Below are positions 5,339 to 11,959 of a stretch of DNA of 64,000 bases, piece by piece. A program made the translations under genes and the position numbers. Positions within the stretch are counted from its first letter, which is position 1. Every line of letters starts with the position of its first letter. The DNA comes from Blastopirellula marina DSM 3645. GTDB taxonomy: Bacteria > Planctomycetota > Planctomycetia > Pirellulales > Pirellulaceae. Under the pieces are notes generated by a model. It had not been told where the DNA came from. It was given only the letters and a program-made list of their open reading frames with translations, and searched no databases. The stretch spans positions 3,299,048 through 3,363,047 of the forward strand of contig NZ_CH672376.1 in assembly GCF_000153105.1 (NCBI RefSeq), given 5' to 3'.

Positions 5339-6235
5339 CTACTTGGCGGCCTGCGGGTTGGTCGCTTTGCTGAACTCAAGCGTGCCGATGGTCGCTGATG
5401 GGGTGAAGGTGAACTTAGTCGCCGAGGTGATGGCGAGCTTGCCTTGTAAGCGGATTCCGTCGTCGCCGACCAGCGAGAGGGTTCCGGCTTGGAGCGAAAA
5501 TGTCCCTTTCGATTTGGTTTGCTTGCCCGATTTGACGTAGACCAACTGAAACTTGCTGTCGGCGTCAAAGCGGATCGCCAACGCTTCGGTCTTTGACTTC
5601 GCGGCGCTCCAGGCGCCGATCAGCGCCGCGGCGGAGATCGATGTCGCCGGAGTAGTCGCAGCGGCGTCGGTCGTTTGGGCTTCGGCGCTCGGCATTTTCC
5701 AGAGGTCGACGGTCCCTTTGGCCAGCACCGCTAGACGATTGATTTCGTCGCGCAGCTTTTGCCCGGTGATCGACTCGTTCGGCAAAATGCGGAACAGCTC
5801 GGTTCGTTTTCGCTGGGTGCTGAAGGTGAAAACTGACGGAGCATGCAGTTGATTCGCTTCCAGCAGCTTCAATAACTGGAGCGAGTTCAGCTTTGCTTCG
5901 TCTTTAAGCGTGCTGAGCGGCATCGTAAGTCCAATGCTCATCTCGTCTTCTGAGATCGTCACTAGAACGTTGAAAGCCCAGTCGTCCAATGCCTTTTTGA
6001 CCAGCACGACGCGAGAACCGGCGATTTTGCTCTCGAGACCGGCTGCGGTCAGCATTTGGTTCAGTTGGTCGGTCGAATTGATTCGCGCAACCGGCGAAAT
6101 CGTCCCTTTCGACGAGCTGTCGACAAAGACGGCGTCGGTGCGGACGCCGGAAAACAGGTCGTTTTCGTCGGCCAGACCGACAGAAGCGAGCGCTGCGATC
6201 AGGCCGCAAACCAGGGGGGCGATCGTTTTGAACAT
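5339..6235 (-). CDS. Secreted protein of unknown function with shared ECF-type promoter
   Basis: A 298-residue protein with a clear signal peptide (MFKTIAPLVCGLIAALASVGLA), so it is exported. Residues about 50-175 alternate strands and helices in a way that recalls the CesT/YbjN chaperone-like fold (LLKLLEANQLHAPSVFTFS, then GQKLRDEINRLAVLA). This is a weak resemblance. A Thr/Ala-rich linker (TTDAAATTPATSISAA) leads to a C-terminal beta-rich domain starting GAWSAAKSKTEAL, like a small lipocalin-type barrel. Its promoter-like element at 6299-6321 has the same sequence and geometry as those of the two Tyr-rich genes at 6535 and 10642, so the three are probably co-regulated. Confidence 0.75.
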   Translation of the reverse strand: MFKTIAPLVCGLIAALASVGLADENDLFSGVRTDAVFVDSSSKGTISPVARINSTDQLNQMLTAAGLESKIAGSRVVLVKKALDDWAFNVLVTISEDEMSIGLTMPLSTLKDEAKLNSLQLLKLLEANQLHAPSVFTFSTQRKRTELFRILPNESITGQKLRDEINRLAVLAKGTVDLWKMPSAEAQTTDAAATTPATSISAAALIGAWSAAKSKTEALAIRFDADSKFQLVYVKSGKQTKSKGTFSLQAGTLSLVGDDGIRLQGKLAITSATKFTFTPSATIGTLEFSKATNPQAAK

Positions 6236-6291: not shown

Positions 6292-6321
6292 GCGAAGCGA
6301 GAACCGCGGCCGTTTGTTACA
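6292..6321 (-). promoter_or_regulatory. Candidate ECF promoter, leftward copy
   Basis: On the minus strand TGTAAC begins at 6321 and runs as TGTAACAAACG. A 16-nt spacer after TGTAAC leads to CGCTTCGC at 6299-6292. The element lies about 60-85 bases upstream of the start codon at 6235. It repeats the elements at 6417 and 10527 with identical spacing. Confidence 0.6.
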
Positions 6322-6416
6322 GATTTTGCTGCCGGGGGTGCGCCACCCTTTTTGACGCCCCCTTTAATAAGGCCGAGAGCGAGCAGCCCCGCGAATGAAC
6401 GTTTTTTGAGAAAGGG

Positions 6417-6451
6417 TGTAACAAACGTCGCGGGTTGTCGCTTTGCAGAGT
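6417..6451 (+). promoter_or_regulatory. Candidate ECF promoter, rightward copy 1
   Basis: TGTAACAAACG at 6417-6427, then 11 bases, then CGCTTTGCAGAGTA from 6439. Read as an ECF promoter this gives a -35 of TGTAAC with the usual AAC core, a 16-nt spacer and a -10 of CGCT. The start codon is about 85-115 bases downstream. Confidence 0.6.
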
Positions 6452-6466
6452 ATCAACGCAACTTCG

Positions 6467-6497
6467 GTCAACTGAAACGAACGGCAATTCAGTTGAC
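6467..6497 (+). promoter_or_regulatory. 5' leader stem-loop, copy 1
   Basis: Arms GTCAACTGAA (6467-6476) and TTCAGTTGAC (6488-6497) form a perfect 10-bp stem with an 11-nt loop, 37 bases before the start codon. The same stem occurs in the leader of the paralogue at 10642, with a different loop. This suggests conservation of structure. Confidence 0.65.
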
Positions 6498-6534
6498 TTC
6501 CAGCCAACCCAACGCCGATTGAGGAATCAAAGTC

Positions 6535-6921
6535 ATGTTGAAGAAAATCGTGTTCGCCATCGTTCCCGTCTGCTTGTTCTCGGTCGCTCTGCGAGCCGAT
6601 GACTCGCTTAACTTTGACCTGAGCGACATCAAAGATGCGGACGTGTCGATCGTCGAAGAAGGTTTTGATCTGGACTTCGATCTGTTAGCGGCCGACGCCG
6701 GCAGCGAAAGCGACGATCAGGCGATTGAAGCTTCGTTCCGTCGATTCGGCTATCACAGTCGCGGCTACCGTAACTATGGACATCGCAACTACGGCTATCG
6801 CAGCTACGGTTATGGTTACGGCTACAGCTGCTACCGTCCGTACTACAGCTGCTATCGCCCTGTTTACCGCGCTCCGGTTTGTTACACCCCGTGCTACACC
6901 AGCTACTGGGGTTGCTACTAA
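6535..6921 (+). CDS. Secreted Tyr/Gly/Cys-rich small protein, paralogue 1
   Basis: A 128-residue protein with a signal peptide (MLKKIVFAIVPVCLFSVALRA). An acidic middle part follows (NFDLSDIKDADVSIVEEG, residues 25-60). The tail of about 55 residues is made of short repeats rich in Tyr, Arg, Gly and Cys (RGYRNYGHRNYGYRSYGYG, then CYRPYYSCYRPVYRAP, ending CYTSYWGCY). Even Cys spacing suggests disulphide or Tyr cross-linking at the cell surface. The gene has a near copy at 10642, and the pair flanks an ECF sigma factor and a membrane kinase. It has its own candidate ECF promoter, leader hairpin and terminator. I know of no characterised family; a structural or envelope role is an inference. Confidence 0.85.
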   Translation: MLKKIVFAIVPVCLFSVALRADDSLNFDLSDIKDADVSIVEEGFDLDFDLLAADAGSESDDQAIEASFRRFGYHSRGYRNYGHRNYGYRSYGYGYGYSCYRPYYSCYRPVYRAPVCYTPCYTSYWGCY

Positions 6922-6951
6922 GCACCACCGCGTCGACGCGTAAACTTACAG

Positions 6952-6987
6952 AGCCCGACGGGTCCCTCGCGACCGTCGGGCTTTTTT
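6952..6987 (+). terminator. Terminator after Tyr-rich paralogue 1
   Basis: Arms AGCCCGACGG (6952-6961) and CCGTCGGGCT (6973-6982) make a perfect 10-bp stem followed by TTTTTT. The stem base is shared with the terminator of the paralogue at 11059. Confidence 0.9.
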
Positions 6988-7064
6988 GATGCGCTGTGGA
7001 TCGTCGTAGCGGACCACGAACCACGTGCGGCGCGGATAGTCCGCCCAGCCGGCCCTACGGCTGA

Positions 7065-7676
7065 CTAGCGCAACTCTTGCTCGGCCAGCACGGCTTGCAG
7101 TTGTTTCAGCGTACGAGTGAGCAACACGCGGACGGCGGCGTCTGATTTGCCCAGTTCATTGGCGATATCTTTCGAGGGCCAGCCTTCGACGTATTTCAGA
7201 CGGATCACTTCGCGTTGATCTTCCCGCAGCTCGGCCAAAGCGGCTTGCAGGCGTGATTCGCGCGCGTTTCGCGAAAAGGCCTTGCTGGGAGTGGTCATGC
7301 TTTTGACCAGCAAGTTGACCAGGCCGACCTCTCCAGCTCCCCCTGCAGGACGCCCGTCTAGCGAACGTTCGCGCCCGGCGTCTCGCTTTTGTGCGCCAAA
7401 GTGGTGGCGATGCGCATCGACGATCTTCCGTTCGGCGATCTGACAGAGCCACGAGAACGGGTCTTTGTCGCCGGGAAACTCAGGAGTTATGGCGCGGACC
7501 GCTTCGACGCTCGAATCCTGGAAGATATCTTCCGCTTCGACCTTCGACTTGAGCGCCGGCCCCAAGCGGCGATGAATGTAGGCCATCAGATGATGTTTTC
7601 GCGCATCGATAAACATCGCCAACGCATCCACGTCACCGGTGCTGATTTGTTCGACAAGCGCCGCTTCATCGCTCAC
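7065..7676 (-). CDS. ECF-family RNA polymerase sigma factor
   Basis: A 203-residue sigma factor starting at GTG 7676, with GGAG about 10 bases upstream. Region 2 is recognisable as IHRRLGPALKSKVEAEDIFQDSSVEA followed by FSWLCQIAERKIVDAHRHHFGAQKR. Region 4 is LAELREDQREVIRLKYVEGW plus the helix-turn-helix PSKDIANELGKSDAAVRVLLTRTLKQLQ. The linker is Gly/Pro-rich. It is transcribed divergently from a transmembrane Ser/Thr kinase 239 bases away, an arrangement known for several planctomycete ECF groups in which phosphorylation is thought to replace an anti-sigma factor. The candidate ECF promoters at 6321, 6417 and 10527 surround it, making it the obvious candidate reader. That link is inferred from position. 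Confidence 0.9.
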   Translation of the reverse strand: MSDEAALVEQISTGDVDALAMFIDARKHHLMAYIHRRLGPALKSKVEAEDIFQDSSVEAVRAITPEFPGDKDPFSWLCQIAERKIVDAHRHHFGAQKRDAGRERSLDGRPAGGAGEVGLVNLLVKSMTTPSKAFSRNARESRLQAALAELREDQREVIRLKYVEGWPSKDIANELGKSDAAVRVLLTRTLKQLQAVLAEQELR

Positions 7677-7699
7677 AAGAATGTCGCTCCGTAATGATC

Positions 7700-7715
7700 G
7701 GTTTTGAAGTTGTGC
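7700..7715 (+). repeat. 16-mer dispersed repeat, copy B
   Basis: Identical to 5030-5045 (GGTTTTGAAGTTGTGC). It lies only 24 bases upstream of the sigma factor start codon, inside its leader or promoter. Confidence 0.6.
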
Positions 7716-7914
7716 AGGAAGAAATTTGGCTGGCGCTTCGGGCTACGAAGAGAGATGCGAGCCAAAATCATAAACTGGGTAAATTCGGTGCGGTTGATAT
7801 TACCACAATTGGAAATAAAACGGTCTCACTTTTTTCTCTTCACTTGTCATCCGGTTCGTAGCGGGCGAAAATCGGTGGCCCCGTCGTGGCGCACTTTTGG
7901 CGCAGGCATGAAGT

Positions 7915-10194
7915 ATGGGACTGCAAGGTAGACCGAAAATCAATATTGACGATCAGCCGACGATTCCGCTGAAGCTGGAAGATGCTGGCGCAAGCTGGGA
8001 TGCGCTGGCTGGGTTTATGGAGCGGTTTCTCGAGCAATGGGAAGCCGATTCATTGCCGCCGCGTTTGGTGGACTATTTGCCCCCCGAGCACGGCGTCTTT
8101 CGCCGGATGGTCTTGATTGAATTGATCAAGATCGACATGGAATATCGGCGGCAACGCAACTGCGATTTTCTTCGCTTGGAAGATTATCATGAGCGATTTC
8201 CGGAACTAAGTCGCCCTGACGGGATGCCGACGGACCTGATCTTCGAGGAATACCACGTCCGCAAAACGTCAGGCGAACAGGTCGATCTCCACGAATACGG
8301 GAACCGATTTCCTGGCCAAGCCGACGCGATCGTTCGCTTGTTCAAGCTGGACAGCGAGACGATGACCACATCCCTGTCCGATGGCCGCGCGCACGCCAAG
8401 TTTGTGACCGGCGACCGAGTGGGGGACTTTTATTTGATGTCGGCTTTGGGCGCCGGCGCGTTTGGCAGCGTCTTTCTGGCGCGACAAGAGACGATGCAGC
8501 GGCTGGTGGCGCTGAAGATTTCGATGGACCGGGGGACCGAGGCGCAGACGCTCGCCCAGCTGGATCACCCGAACATCGTCCGCGTCTATGATCAATGCCG
8601 CTTGCCAGGCGAAAACCTCCGTCTGCTTTATATGCAGTTTGTCGCCGGCGGAACGTTACACGGCGTCATTCGGGACGGCAATCAAAAACAACGCCGCGAC
8701 GCGAGCCTGTTGGCGGAGACGATCGCCGAGACGCTTGACAAAACAGGGGTCGTCACGGCCCAAAATGTTCCGCTAAAGTCGGAACTGGCCGAGCGCCCTT
8801 GGTCTGAGATTACCTGTCGAATCGGTATGGAATTGGCCAGCGCCCTGCATTACGCCCATCTGCAGGGAATTTTGCATCGCGATGTGAAGCCGGCCAATGT
8901 TTTGTTAGAAGCGAACGGCACGGCGAAACTAGCCGACTTCAACATTAGCTTTAGCTCGCAGTTGGAAGGGACGAGCCCTGCCGCTTACTTTGGCGGAAGT
9001 CTTGCCTATATGTCGCCTGAGCAGTTGGAAGCGTGCCATCCCGAGCATCATCGCCAGGCGAGCGACCTGGACGGGCGAAGCGATGTTTTTTCGCTCGGCG
9101 TCTTGCTGTGGGAGCTGATGTTCGGCGAGCGCCCCTTTGGCGACGAAGCGATCGTCGGCAGTTGGTACACGTCGCTGCTGGGGATGGCCGATATTCGTCG
9201 CGATCAAACTCCGCAACCGAAACAGATGCCGACTGACGACGTCGGCCGGCGGTTGTTAGCGATCTTGCGCCGCTGTTTGCAGCCCGAGTTGCGAGATCGC
9301 TATCAAACGGCCGATCATCTCGCGCGAGATTTGGGGCTTTGTCTCGAACCGCGCGTCGCGCGACTGCAAGATCGCTCGAAACGGGGCCTGTTGGCGCTCG
9401 CGTCGCGACATCCGTTGCTGGCGACAACGATCGCCGGCATTGGACCGAACGCCATCGCCGGGTTCTTCAACTTCGTATACAACGATCAGGCCATCATTCG
9501 CAAGCTGGAAGGGACCCATTCGTATGACGTGTTCTGGAATGTCCAGTTCGTCATCAACTCGATCGCATTTCCTTTGGCGATCATCTTGGGGGGATTTTAT
9601 ATCTGGCCCTTTGTCAAAGGGCTGCGTCATGTACTGAATCAAGAACCGCCGACCGATCTGCAATTGGCGCGGCGGCGCGCTTTTCGGATTGGTCGATTTA
9701 TCAGCTATCTGGGGATCGCCGAATGGACGATCGCCGGCATCGCCTATCCGGTTGCGTTGCACCTGATCTTGGGAGGACTCGAGCGGCAATGGTACGCTCA
9801 TTTTCTTGGCTCTCTGTTGATCTGCGGCATGATCGCCGCGGCCTATCCCTTCTTCTTTTTGTCGACGCTCGCGATTCGCGCATTTATACCGCCGCTGTTA
9901 GAAGCGGAGCCGCTAAGCGGATCGGACGTTCGAGAGCTGCGCTGGATGGCGAAACATATGGACTGGTTTCTCTATTTAGCCGGCGGAGTCCCCGCCGCCG
10001 GCGTGATGCTGCTGCTCTCGGCCGGGCATGTGGACGATCCGCACAGTAGCTTAGCGCTCAAAGTGCTTAGCGCCGCCGGCGCCATCGGCTTTGGATTTGC
10101 GCTCAGTTTGTCCCGCTCGGTGCATGCCGATATCGAAGCGCTGCTGAAAACGGCCGATCTATTCGCCGATACGCGCGATTCTAGCCGCTCGTAA
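7915..10194 (+). CDS. Transmembrane Ser/Thr protein kinase with polytopic C-terminus
   Basis: A 759-residue kinase. Residues 1-165 are an N-terminal extension with conserved acidic and aromatic patches (LVDYLPPEHG, RLEDYHERFPE) seen in planctomycete kinases. The kinase domain spans about 167-480: P-loop GAGAFGSVFLAR, the ATP lysine in VALKIS, catalytic loop HRDVKPANV near 320, and APE-like MSPEQLEA. The metal-binding DFG is DFN (ADFNIS near 341), so catalysis may be altered. After the kinase domain come about six hydrophobic segments (for example NSIAFPLAIILGGFYIWPFV and GSLLICGMIAAAYPFFFL), anchoring it in the membrane. There is no extracellular sensor domain of note. Divergent ECF sigma factor at 7676; likely functional partner. 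Confidence 0.9.
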   Translation: MGLQGRPKINIDDQPTIPLKLEDAGASWDALAGFMERFLEQWEADSLPPRLVDYLPPEHGVFRRMVLIELIKIDMEYRRQRNCDFLRLEDYHERFPELSRPDGMPTDLIFEEYHVRKTSGEQVDLHEYGNRFPGQADAIVRLFKLDSETMTTSLSDGRAHAKFVTGDRVGDFYLMSALGAGAFGSVFLARQETMQRLVALKISMDRGTEAQTLAQLDHPNIVRVYDQCRLPGENLRLLYMQFVAGGTLHGVIRDGNQKQRRDASLLAETIAETLDKTGVVTAQNVPLKSELAERPWSEITCRIGMELASALHYAHLQGILHRDVKPANVLLEANGTAKLADFNISFSSQLEGTSPAAYFGGSLAYMSPEQLEACHPEHHRQASDLDGRSDVFSLGVLLWELMFGERPFGDEAIVGSWYTSLLGMADIRRDQTPQPKQMPTDDVGRRLLAILRRCLQPELRDRYQTADHLARDLGLCLEPRVARLQDRSKRGLLALASRHPLLATTIAGIGPNAIAGFFNFVYNDQAIIRKLEGTHSYDVFWNVQFVINSIAFPLAIILGGFYIWPFVKGLRHVLNQEPPTDLQLARRRAFRIGRFISYLGIAEWTIAGIAYPVALHLILGGLERQWYAHFLGSLLICGMIAAAYPFFFLSTLAIRAFIPPLLEAEPLSGSDVRELRWMAKHMDWFLYLAGGVPAAGVMLLLSAGHVDDPHSSLALKVLSAAGAIGFGFALSLSRSVHADIEALLKTADLFADTRDSSRS

Positions 10195-10195
10195 G

Positions 10196-10439
10196 CGTTT
10201 TGAAGTTGCGCTATTTCATCGGTTGGCCGCGATAGCTTCGCTATCGGGGCCGACAAAGTCGGTAAGAGGCATCGAGCCGTGGTCGGACCTAGAGCGGCGG
10301 TTGCCGCACCGTTTGAAATGGCGAAATGGCCCCGAACTGCATACCGGGAACCAATGCCTCTAACGGCTGCGCCGCCCCGATAGCGGAGCTATCCGGGCCA
10401 ACCGGACGTGGTTTGGCAAAATACCGCAACTTCAAACCG
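10196..10439. repeat. Long imperfect inverted repeat element
   Basis: Arm 1 (10196-10272) and the reverse complement of arm 2 (10354-10439) match along roughly 80 bases. Both run through TTTGAAGTTGCG, CGGTTGGCC, GATAGCT-CGCTATCGGGGC and AGAGGCAT, with one gap of about 10 bases. Each arm contains its own small hairpin (GATAGC...GCTATC). The element starts one base after the kinase stop codon and holds no coding frame. It looks like a miniature inverted-repeat or composite REP element; the outer ends match the 16-mer at 5030 and 7700. Confidence 0.7.
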
Positions 10440-10526
10440 CAAGAGCATGACGCCTAGCGCTGGCGGGAAGTTATTCGTGGTCTTTTCTCGGCATTTCTCG
10501 CCGCCTGAAATATTTCTGGGAATGGG

Positions 10527-10561
10527 TGTAACAAACGGTTCGGCTTACCGCTGTGCAGAGT
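10527..10561 (+). promoter_or_regulatory. Candidate ECF promoter, rightward copy 2
   Basis: TGTAACAAACG at 10527-10537, 11 variable bases, then CGCTGTGCAGAGTA from 10549. Spacing is identical to the copies at 6417 (rightward) and 6321 (leftward). The start codon at 10642 lies about 80-115 bases downstream. Confidence 0.6.
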
Positions 10562-10575
10562 AACAAGTTAACCAA

Positions 10576-10605
10576 GTCAACTGAAAACACGGCGAATCAG
10601 TTGAC
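10576..10605 (+). promoter_or_regulatory. 5' leader stem-loop, copy 2
   Basis: Arms GTCAACTGA (10576-10584) and TCAGTTGAC (10597-10605) form a perfect 9-bp stem with a 12-nt loop, 36 bases before the start codon, as in the leader of the paralogue at 6535. Confidence 0.65.
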
Positions 10606-11058: not shown

Positions 11059-11096
11059 AGCCCGACGTGCCGTTGACGGCCGTCGGGCTCTTTTTG
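11059..11096 (+). terminator. Terminator after Tyr-rich paralogue 2
   Basis: Arms AGCCCGACG (11059-11067) and CGTCGGGCT (11081-11089), with an inner GCCGT/ACGGC stem, followed by CTTTTTG. The next gene starts only 50 bases later, so some read-through may supply it. Confidence 0.85.
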
Positions 11097-11146: not shown

Positions 11147-11959
11147 ATGTCTCGTTGGAAGTACGTTTTGTTAACGCTGAGCTTTGTCTCGGGCATAGCA
11201 ATCACCAACTGTTTCGCCGAGCCCGGCGTGGCGCCGATCAACGCCGAGAGTATTCGGACCGATCAAGTGTTGGGCATTCGGACGCATAGCTGCGGCCATG
11301 TCATTCACTTGCTGATGCAGACGCGAATACTGCGTCAGTCGGGCCAGGTCGGATTCGGCGGAGCGATGTACAATCCCCACTTGGGCGCGATGTCCAAGCC
11401 AGGCGATCTGCAACTGCTGAGCGTCAGCCTGATTTCCGACGCTGGGGAAGGCGCCGGGCCGATCTATCAGATTCAATTGCAGAACTGCAGCGAAATTCCG
11501 GTTGGCGACTTCCGCGTGTCGGTCGTCGGCGCTTGCGGCCAAATCCAACCCTTTTCGCCCACGGCAATCGTGACGGTTCCGCGTATCGAAGCCGGCGCGG
11601 TGCTCGAGCTGCAGATTCAGTTGCCGCTCACTTGCCTGGCGATCCCCAATCCTGCAGGCGTCGCTGTCGAGTTTAACACGCTGATCGTCGCAATTGACAG
11701 CTTTGACGAGCTGATTGAATGCAACGAAGTGAACAACGTTTTGATTCTCAATCGTGGCGAAATCGCACCGCTGGCCGGCGAAGAAACGACCGTGGTCGAT
11801 GAATCGATCGAAACGACGACGCCTCCGGCGGTCGATACGGTGCCGGTTGTTGAAGGTGGGATCACCGCGCCGGCGGCTCCGACCTCGCCGATGGATTCGA
11901 TCGACCTGGACGATCTTGAGCTAGGAGAAGCGGAACAGACCGCCGTTCGCATTCGCTAG
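11147..11959 (+). CDS. Secreted CARDB-like protein
   Basis: A 270-residue protein. I start it at ATG 11147, which has GGAG 10 bases upstream and gives a good signal peptide (WKYVLLTLSFVSGIAITNCFA). The frame is open further upstream, but there it overlaps the previous gene in another frame. Residues 90-210 read as one immunoglobulin-like CARDB domain (ISDAGEGAGPIYQIQLQNCS, then VPRIEAGAVLELQIQLPLTC and DSFDELIECNEVNNVLIL). The tail is Thr/Pro/Val-rich and acidic, ending in a charged segment. It follows a Tyr-rich protein gene and may be expressed with it by read-through. A surface adhesion or scaffold role is plausible but unproven. Confidence 0.8.
   Translation: MSRWKYVLLTLSFVSGIAITNCFAEPGVAPINAESIRTDQVLGIRTHSCGHVIHLLMQTRILRQSGQVGFGGAMYNPHLGAMSKPGDLQLLSVSLISDAGEGAGPIYQIQLQNCSEIPVGDFRVSVVGACGQIQPFSPTAIVTVPRIEAGAVLELQIQLPLTCLAIPNPAGVAVEFNTLIVAIDSFDELIECNEVNNVLILNRGEIAPLAGEETTVVDESIETTTPPAVDTVPVVEGGITAPAAPTSPMDSIDLDDLELGEAEQTAVRIR

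Follow-up and report, generated by a model that had tools for sequence, protein, structure and literature searches.

A 64,000-nt window of the Blastopirellula marina DSM 3645 genome (contig NZ_CH672376.1, positions 3,299,048 to 3,363,047) contains a gene for an extracytoplasmic function (ECF) sigma factor and, divergent from it, a gene for a membrane Ser/Thr kinase. Both lie among genes for predicted exported proteins, three of which are preceded by the same promoter-like element. This arrangement raises the question of whether the element is the promoter of this particular sigma factor, and whether the kinase controls it. The reading favoured here, to which we give a probability of about 0.7, is that the kinase switches on the ECF sigma factor, which would then direct RNA polymerase to (T/C)GTAACA-N15-CGCT promoters of predicted exported-protein genes. 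Throughout, 'exported' refers to a signal-peptide-like N-terminus, and 'window' to the whole 64,000-nt stretch. Coordinates are given in Table 1.

The shared element and its spacer

A preliminary description of the window had placed three identically spaced elements upstream of the genes for a 298-aa protein and two Tyr-rich proteins, with the ECF and kinase genes between the latter two. The elements and the named open reading frames (ORFs) were all found at the positions it gave. Each element reads TGTAACAAACG-N11-CGCT followed directly by NNGC (3/3 sites), and shuffling the window 100 times yielded 0.00 matches on average. Only 5 copies of TGTAACAAACG are present in the 6.66-Mb genome, 3 of them in the window. 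The Tyr-rich genes are paralogues with similar leaders, so their two elements are not mutually independent.

The form first proposed for a genome scan, TGTAAC-N16-CGCT, was rejected as a genome-wide signature, with 12 matches in the B. marina genome versus 18 for the reversed pattern; specificity requires the A at base seven. With this base included, TGTAACA-N15-CGCT has 8 matches, and 6 of the 8 fall in one stretch of approximately 30 kb that includes the ECF gene. All six precede predicted exported-protein genes. A further candidate, TGTAACAA-N14-CG, was also rejected, being too loose beyond the genus. The better consensus is (T/C)GTAACA-N15-CGCT. A descriptive logo of 31 sites chosen by eye near ECF loci (19 in the genus, the other 12 at five distant loci) consists of the blocks TGTAACA and CGCT, with weak signals for GNTT ahead of CGCT and for GC/GTAGAG behind it. 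A matrix scan partly trained on the loci scanned was used for display only.

The clustered sites are kept in three congeners, 6/6 in G003 and 5/6 each in G001 and G002, some of them as CGTAACA. This form precedes the ECF-proximal Tyr-rich gene in G001 and G002 and the protease gene in G001, and the element before the Asn/His-rich gene was not seen in G001 or G002.

The spacer was assessed around ECF loci obtained by scanning a genome collection with an alignment of the ECF sigma factor, which gave 106 relatives. The best 80 of the 106 were used (1,195,663 bases), and several of these apparently derive from assemblies that are also in the genome panel described below. TGTAACA-N15-CGCT occurs 23 times around the 80 loci, whereas spacers of N10-N14 give 1, 1, 0, 0 and 0 occurrences and N16-N20 give 0, 0, 0, 0 and 1. 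The reversed pattern was found once, and 40 permuted heptamers gave a mean of 0.475 and a maximum of 3. The elements cluster beside the ECF gene in several genera. Around the same loci the shorter TGTAAC-N16-CGCT has 26 sites, 17 of which precede signal-peptide-like ORFs.

Distribution of the element in related genomes

A panel of 59 related genomes was divided into 24 that carry an ECF homologue at E<=1e-30 (ECF+) and 35 that do not (ECF-). With B. marina itself, which was left out of the match counts, 25/60 genomes are ECF+. The ECF+ genomes contain 115 TGTAACA-N15-CGCT matches versus 78 for the reversed-pattern control, and the ECF- genomes contain 30 versus 89; at least one match is present in 24/24 and 17/35 genomes, respectively. 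All 145 matches were put through an exported-protein rule, under which the element must be followed, 15-130 nt downstream, by the start of an ORF that is 60 aa or longer and has a signal-peptide-like N-terminus. In the forward direction 60/115 ECF+ matches pass versus 1/30 ECF- matches (Fisher p 2.0e-7, kinship ignored), and in the opposite direction 10/115 and 3/30 pass. The corresponding figure for random positions is 5.3-7.4%. The median distance from CGCT to the start codon, for passing matches, is 69 nt.

Counted by genome, a passing match is present in 20/24 ECF+ versus 1/35 ECF- genomes (Fisher p 7.2e-11, again ignoring kinship). Within family f1 the figures are 11/12 versus 0/24, and outside it 9/12 versus 1/11. 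The three congeners supply 15 of the 115 ECF+ matches, and 13 of those 15 pass. An association of the element with this ECF sigma factor that extends beyond the genus is therefore well supported by these genome comparisons. Targets can be remote from the ECF gene: in G021 the elements of a trypsin-like protease gene and of a neighbouring predicted exported-protein gene are about 0.58 Mb away from it. The earlier proposal of a shared ECF-type promoter tied to this sigma factor thus gains from the fixed spacer, the conservation in three congeners, the clustering beside the ECF gene and the presence/absence pattern in 59 genomes. The element is likely to be this sigma factor's own promoter.

The sigma factor and the kinase

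By its domain scores the 203-aa product is an ECF sigma factor with regions 2 and 4 only (Sigma70_r2, 27.0 bits, cut-off 24; Sigma70_r4_2, 56.4 bits, cut-off 25.7). It scores 134.9 bits against TIGR02984 (Sig-70_plancto1) and 62 bits against the sigma-BldN family TIGR02952, under the curated cut-offs of 183.75 and 206.45. Its best-scoring solved relative is 6dxo_A, which we take to be the BldN structure. The sigma2.2 region reads EAED, and among 17 sequences D50 and Q53 are invariant and E47 nearly so. Replacement of the acidic DxxD of sigma2.2 by uncharged residues plus a phospho-Thr, as in ECF43, was not found, the acidic residues being intact. In the linker between sigma2 and sigma4, T128 is invariant and S131 and S135 are nearly invariant in the same 17 sequences. 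Part of this linker motif is not private to the group, because a paralogue (L233) also has 'TP' there.

The kinase matches PF00069 above the gathering score (131.9 bits) and contains GAGAFGSV, VALK and HRDVKPAN. On the basis of the domain score, GxGxxGxV, the catalytic Lys and HRD, it is assigned to the Hanks-type Ser/Thr kinases. The DFG position reads DFN in this protein and in 60/61 relatives (one unread), and its five C-terminal hydrophobic segments fall within residues 545-730. The kinase and ECF genes are 239 nt apart in the window. A kinase homologue (E<=1e-20) was found in 61/80 ECF loci, in 53 of them divergent within 600 nt, in 5 on the same strand and in 3 otherwise.

Co-occurrence extends to genomes where the two genes are unlinked. 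This comparison covered 20 of the 60 genomes. ECF+ genomes that lack a kinase gene beside the ECF gene have a near-full-length homologue elsewhere in 7/7 cases, on another contig or megabases away, and three with an adjacent kinase gene also match, giving 10/10 ECF+ genomes tested. Among ten ECF- genomes, 8 have no kinase match at E<=1e-60, and the other 2 have weaker matches missing the first 158-164 residues. Coupling of the kinase to the ECF sigma factor, which had been suggested as an ECF-kinase switch, is supported by this pattern, and the kinase is predicted to act as that switch.

The candidate regulon and its products

The three genes originally assigned to a small regulon stay in the candidate set, which now appears wider, adding a protease, His/Asn/Gln-rich proteins and one methyltransferase. 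The distal half of the 30-kb cluster (L024), 17-19 kb before the window start, has an element before each of three genes, which encode two His/Asn/Gln-rich predicted exported proteins and a trypsin-like protease (PF13365, 85.6 bits). A seventh, unlinked candidate encodes a 358-aa winged-helix/methyltransferase protein (PF21320 and PF13847; L344:1637-2713) with an Rv2258c-like winged helix. At this locus its element is of the CGTAACA form, and (C/T)GTAACA-N15-CGCT precedes the gene in 4/4 Blastopirellula genomes examined, 73-111 nt ahead of the start codon. Four other matches in the genome (L006, L347, L351 and L010) are chance-like or unclear.

Modelling of the 298-aa protein reached moderate confidence (predicted local distance difference test, pLDDT, 74.2; predicted template modelling score, pTM, 0.47). 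Two Foldseek matches reached E<=0.001, both to ExsC, a type III chaperone (3kxy, 3.4e-4 for the better one); weaker ones were to further type III chaperones, to YbjN and to beta barrels, a lipocalin among them. The model therefore predicts a CesT/YbjN-type fold like that of type III secretion chaperones, linked to a lipocalin-like barrel. The nearest named homologues are from Blastopirellula, and one source labels a B. marina homologue as CesT family. The protein has a weak match to TIGR03066, and TIGR03066 and Lipocalin_4 matches connect it with the His-rich protein, with two proteins of G016 and with the C-terminal portion of the protease in G007; all TIGR03066 matches are below the cut-off, and Lipocalin_4 exceeds its cut-off solely in the G007 protease. 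No chaplin or rodlin match was found among the exported proteins tested. One element is shared by genes for an exported protein of chaperone-like fold, a protease and low-complexity proteins, which suggests a protein layer outside the cytoplasm that has quality control of its own. The earlier view of a regulon for exported surface proteins holds as to predicted export, given the signal-peptide-like N-termini; a surface location goes beyond that evidence.

Proposed mechanism and alternatives

In the favoured scheme, the membrane kinase would likely activate the divergently encoded ECF sigma factor, putatively by phosphorylation and perhaps in the Ser/Thr-rich sigma2-sigma4 linker, a site favoured because the acidic sigma2.2 residues are intact. 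Activated sigma factor would then likely bring RNA polymerase to the (T/C)GTAACA-N15-CGCT sites, from which we infer that transcription is driven. The Tyr-, His-, Asn- or Gly-rich products, with the chaperone-fold/lipocalin-like protein and the HtrA-like trypsin-type protease, may build and quality-control an extracytoplasmic layer or matrix.

Several observations weigh against this scheme. Only 17/80 ECF loci hold TGTAAC-N16-CGCT nearby, and 19/80 have no kinase homologue at E<=1e-20; 16 of those 19 were inspected, and the vicinity of the ECF gene showed no ORF with an HRD-type motif. The exported-protein rule, a simple hydrophobicity threshold rather than a trained predictor, is failed by 55/115 ECF+ matches. 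G034 has 16 matches, none passing, and no match passes in the ECF+ genomes G044, G056 and G057. The presence/absence statistics ignore phylogeny, and the methyltransferase has no obvious signal peptide. In the window, no element was found upstream of either the ECF gene or the kinase gene, and autoregulation is therefore not proposed; loose matches before the ECF genes of L094 and L107 lack CGCT.

The scarcity of elements near most ECF loci would fit an ECF promoter that is read by another sigma factor, the linked ECF/kinase pair controlling something else, and candidates exist in the 35 TIGR02984 matches of the B. marina genome, many of them weak or partial. However, passing matches track this ECF sigma factor (20/24 versus 1/35 genomes), and the elements cluster beside its gene in several genera. 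In addition, two ECF- genomes rich in sigma candidates have 0 matches (G010, 59 candidates) and 1 match (G040, 65 candidates). Another reader of the element is accordingly rated quite improbable. That the element is no promoter, and instead binds a repressor or activator, is very improbable. The TGTAACA block is long and highly conserved, as a binding site might be, but it and CGCT do not repeat one another, the spacer around the 80 loci is invariant save for single stray matches, the direction relative to the gene is constant (60 forward and 10 reverse of 115), and the geometry is that of a published ECF promoter.

It is also conceivable, although unlikely, that the ECF sigma factor reads the element without being acted on by the kinase, its control resting on the amount of sigma factor or on an unlinked anti-sigma factor. 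With the sigma2.2 acidic residues intact the ECF43 charge switch cannot apply, and about a quarter of ECF loci have no nearby kinase gene. Against this stands the co-inheritance of the kinase even where unlinked, near-full-length in 10/10 ECF+ genomes and undetected at E<=1e-60 in 8/10 ECF- genomes. Activation of the sigma factor by the kinase remains our preferred reading.

Comparison with known systems

The promoter of Streptomyces BldN, CGTAACN16CGTTGA (PMC2375139), has the same spacing and a near-identical -35, and differs from the present element in the third -10 base. The sigma-BldN regulon consists of secreted coat proteins (chaplins and rodlins) and is controlled by the anti-sigma factor RsbN (PMC4255298). 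The candidate targets in the present case are likewise predicted to be exported, but the likely partner here is a kinase.

ECF43 members (EcfP/PknT in Vibrio and EcfK/PknS in Xanthomonas) resemble the pair in the window in that the sigma gene adjoins one for a membrane Hanks-type kinase. The acidic sigma2.2 motif, which the present sigma factor keeps, is absent from most of ECF43, and ECF43 targets are the type VI secretion system or polymyxin resistance rather than predicted exported-protein genes. In Xanthomonas, EcfK carries phosphosites both at T51 and within its sigma2-sigma4 linker (PMC13147305). The remaining kinase-linked ECF groups retain the acidic motif, may act in another way and await characterisation; of these, ECF59, ECF61, ECF62 and ECF217 have planctomycete exemplars and are linked to Ser/Thr kinases (PMC8999054). 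They are like the present pair in having a kinase gene beside a sigma gene with an acidic sigma2.2. The parts of PMC8999054 covered gave no promoter or target list for these four groups, whereas both are proposed here. No description of this promoter or regulon was found in the literature searched, which covers few subscription journals.

One kinase-linked sigma pair thereby gains a defined promoter, a target list and a kinase co-inherited in many genera. Because these are defined, sigma specificity, kinase dependence and the linker phosphosite could each be tested with one reporter. The element also offers a regulatory handle on exported low-complexity planctomycete proteins outside any Pfam or NCBIfam family. 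A broader and doubtful extension would make this an order-wide planctomycete counterpart of the BldN/chaplin programme. It would combine a BldN-like promoter code with a DFN-type membrane kinase acting via the linker Ser/Thr cluster, instead of an anti-sigma factor or an ECF43-type charge switch, and a coat or glue made of exported proteins rich in Tyr, His and Gly would be built and policed with the help of a CesT-like chaperone, itself exported, and an HtrA-like protease, both belonging to the programme.

Other features of the locus

Table 1. Elements and genes of the ECF/kinase locus, in window coordinates.
Feature	Position	Strand	Remarks
298-aa protein, signal-peptide-like start; predicted CesT/YbjN-like fold and lipocalin-like beta barrel	5339..6235	-	
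Element TGTAACA-N15-CGCT upstream of 298-aa gene	6296..6321	-	orthologous sites in G001, G002, G003
Element upstream of Tyr-rich gene 1	6417..6442	+	orthologous sites; CGTAACA form in G001, G002
Tyr-rich predicted exported protein 1, 128 aa	6535..6921	+	no Pfam/NCBIfam match; 88 homologues
ECF sigma factor, 203 aa, regions 2 and 4	7065..7676	-	
Ser/Thr kinase, 759 aa, DFN for DFG, five C-terminal hydrophobic segments	7915..10194	+	divergent from ECF gene
Element upstream of Tyr-rich gene 2	10527..10552	+	orthologous sites in G001, G002, G003
Tyr-rich predicted exported protein 2, 128 aa	10642..11028	+	
270-aa predicted exported protein	11147..11959	+	conserved neighbour; orthologues in same place in G001, G002, G003

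The leaders of both Tyr-rich genes contain an inverted repeat, GTCAACTGA...TCAGTTGAC (6467-6497 and 10576-10605), which is also present in the Blastopirellula relatives examined, with one arm imperfect in G001. This repeat might form a hairpin in the mRNA or serve as a second site of regulation. The repeat was not seen in the leaders of L267, L317, L319 and L105, and a leader hairpin was rejected as part of a general mechanism, none being seen in the examined leaders outside Blastopirellula.

Terminator-like GC-rich inverted repeats with T runs, recognised by eye, follow both Tyr-rich genes (approximately 6950-6990 and 11060-11095), and the 270-aa gene may therefore be a separate transcription unit. 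No element of its own was found upstream of this gene, and its membership of the regulon is uncertain. Beside the distal half of the cluster, an ORF (L024:4459-5043) resembles Cu/Zn superoxide dismutase, as named by eye, and a DDE transposase gene (PF01609; L024:12300-13472) lies between the two cluster halves.

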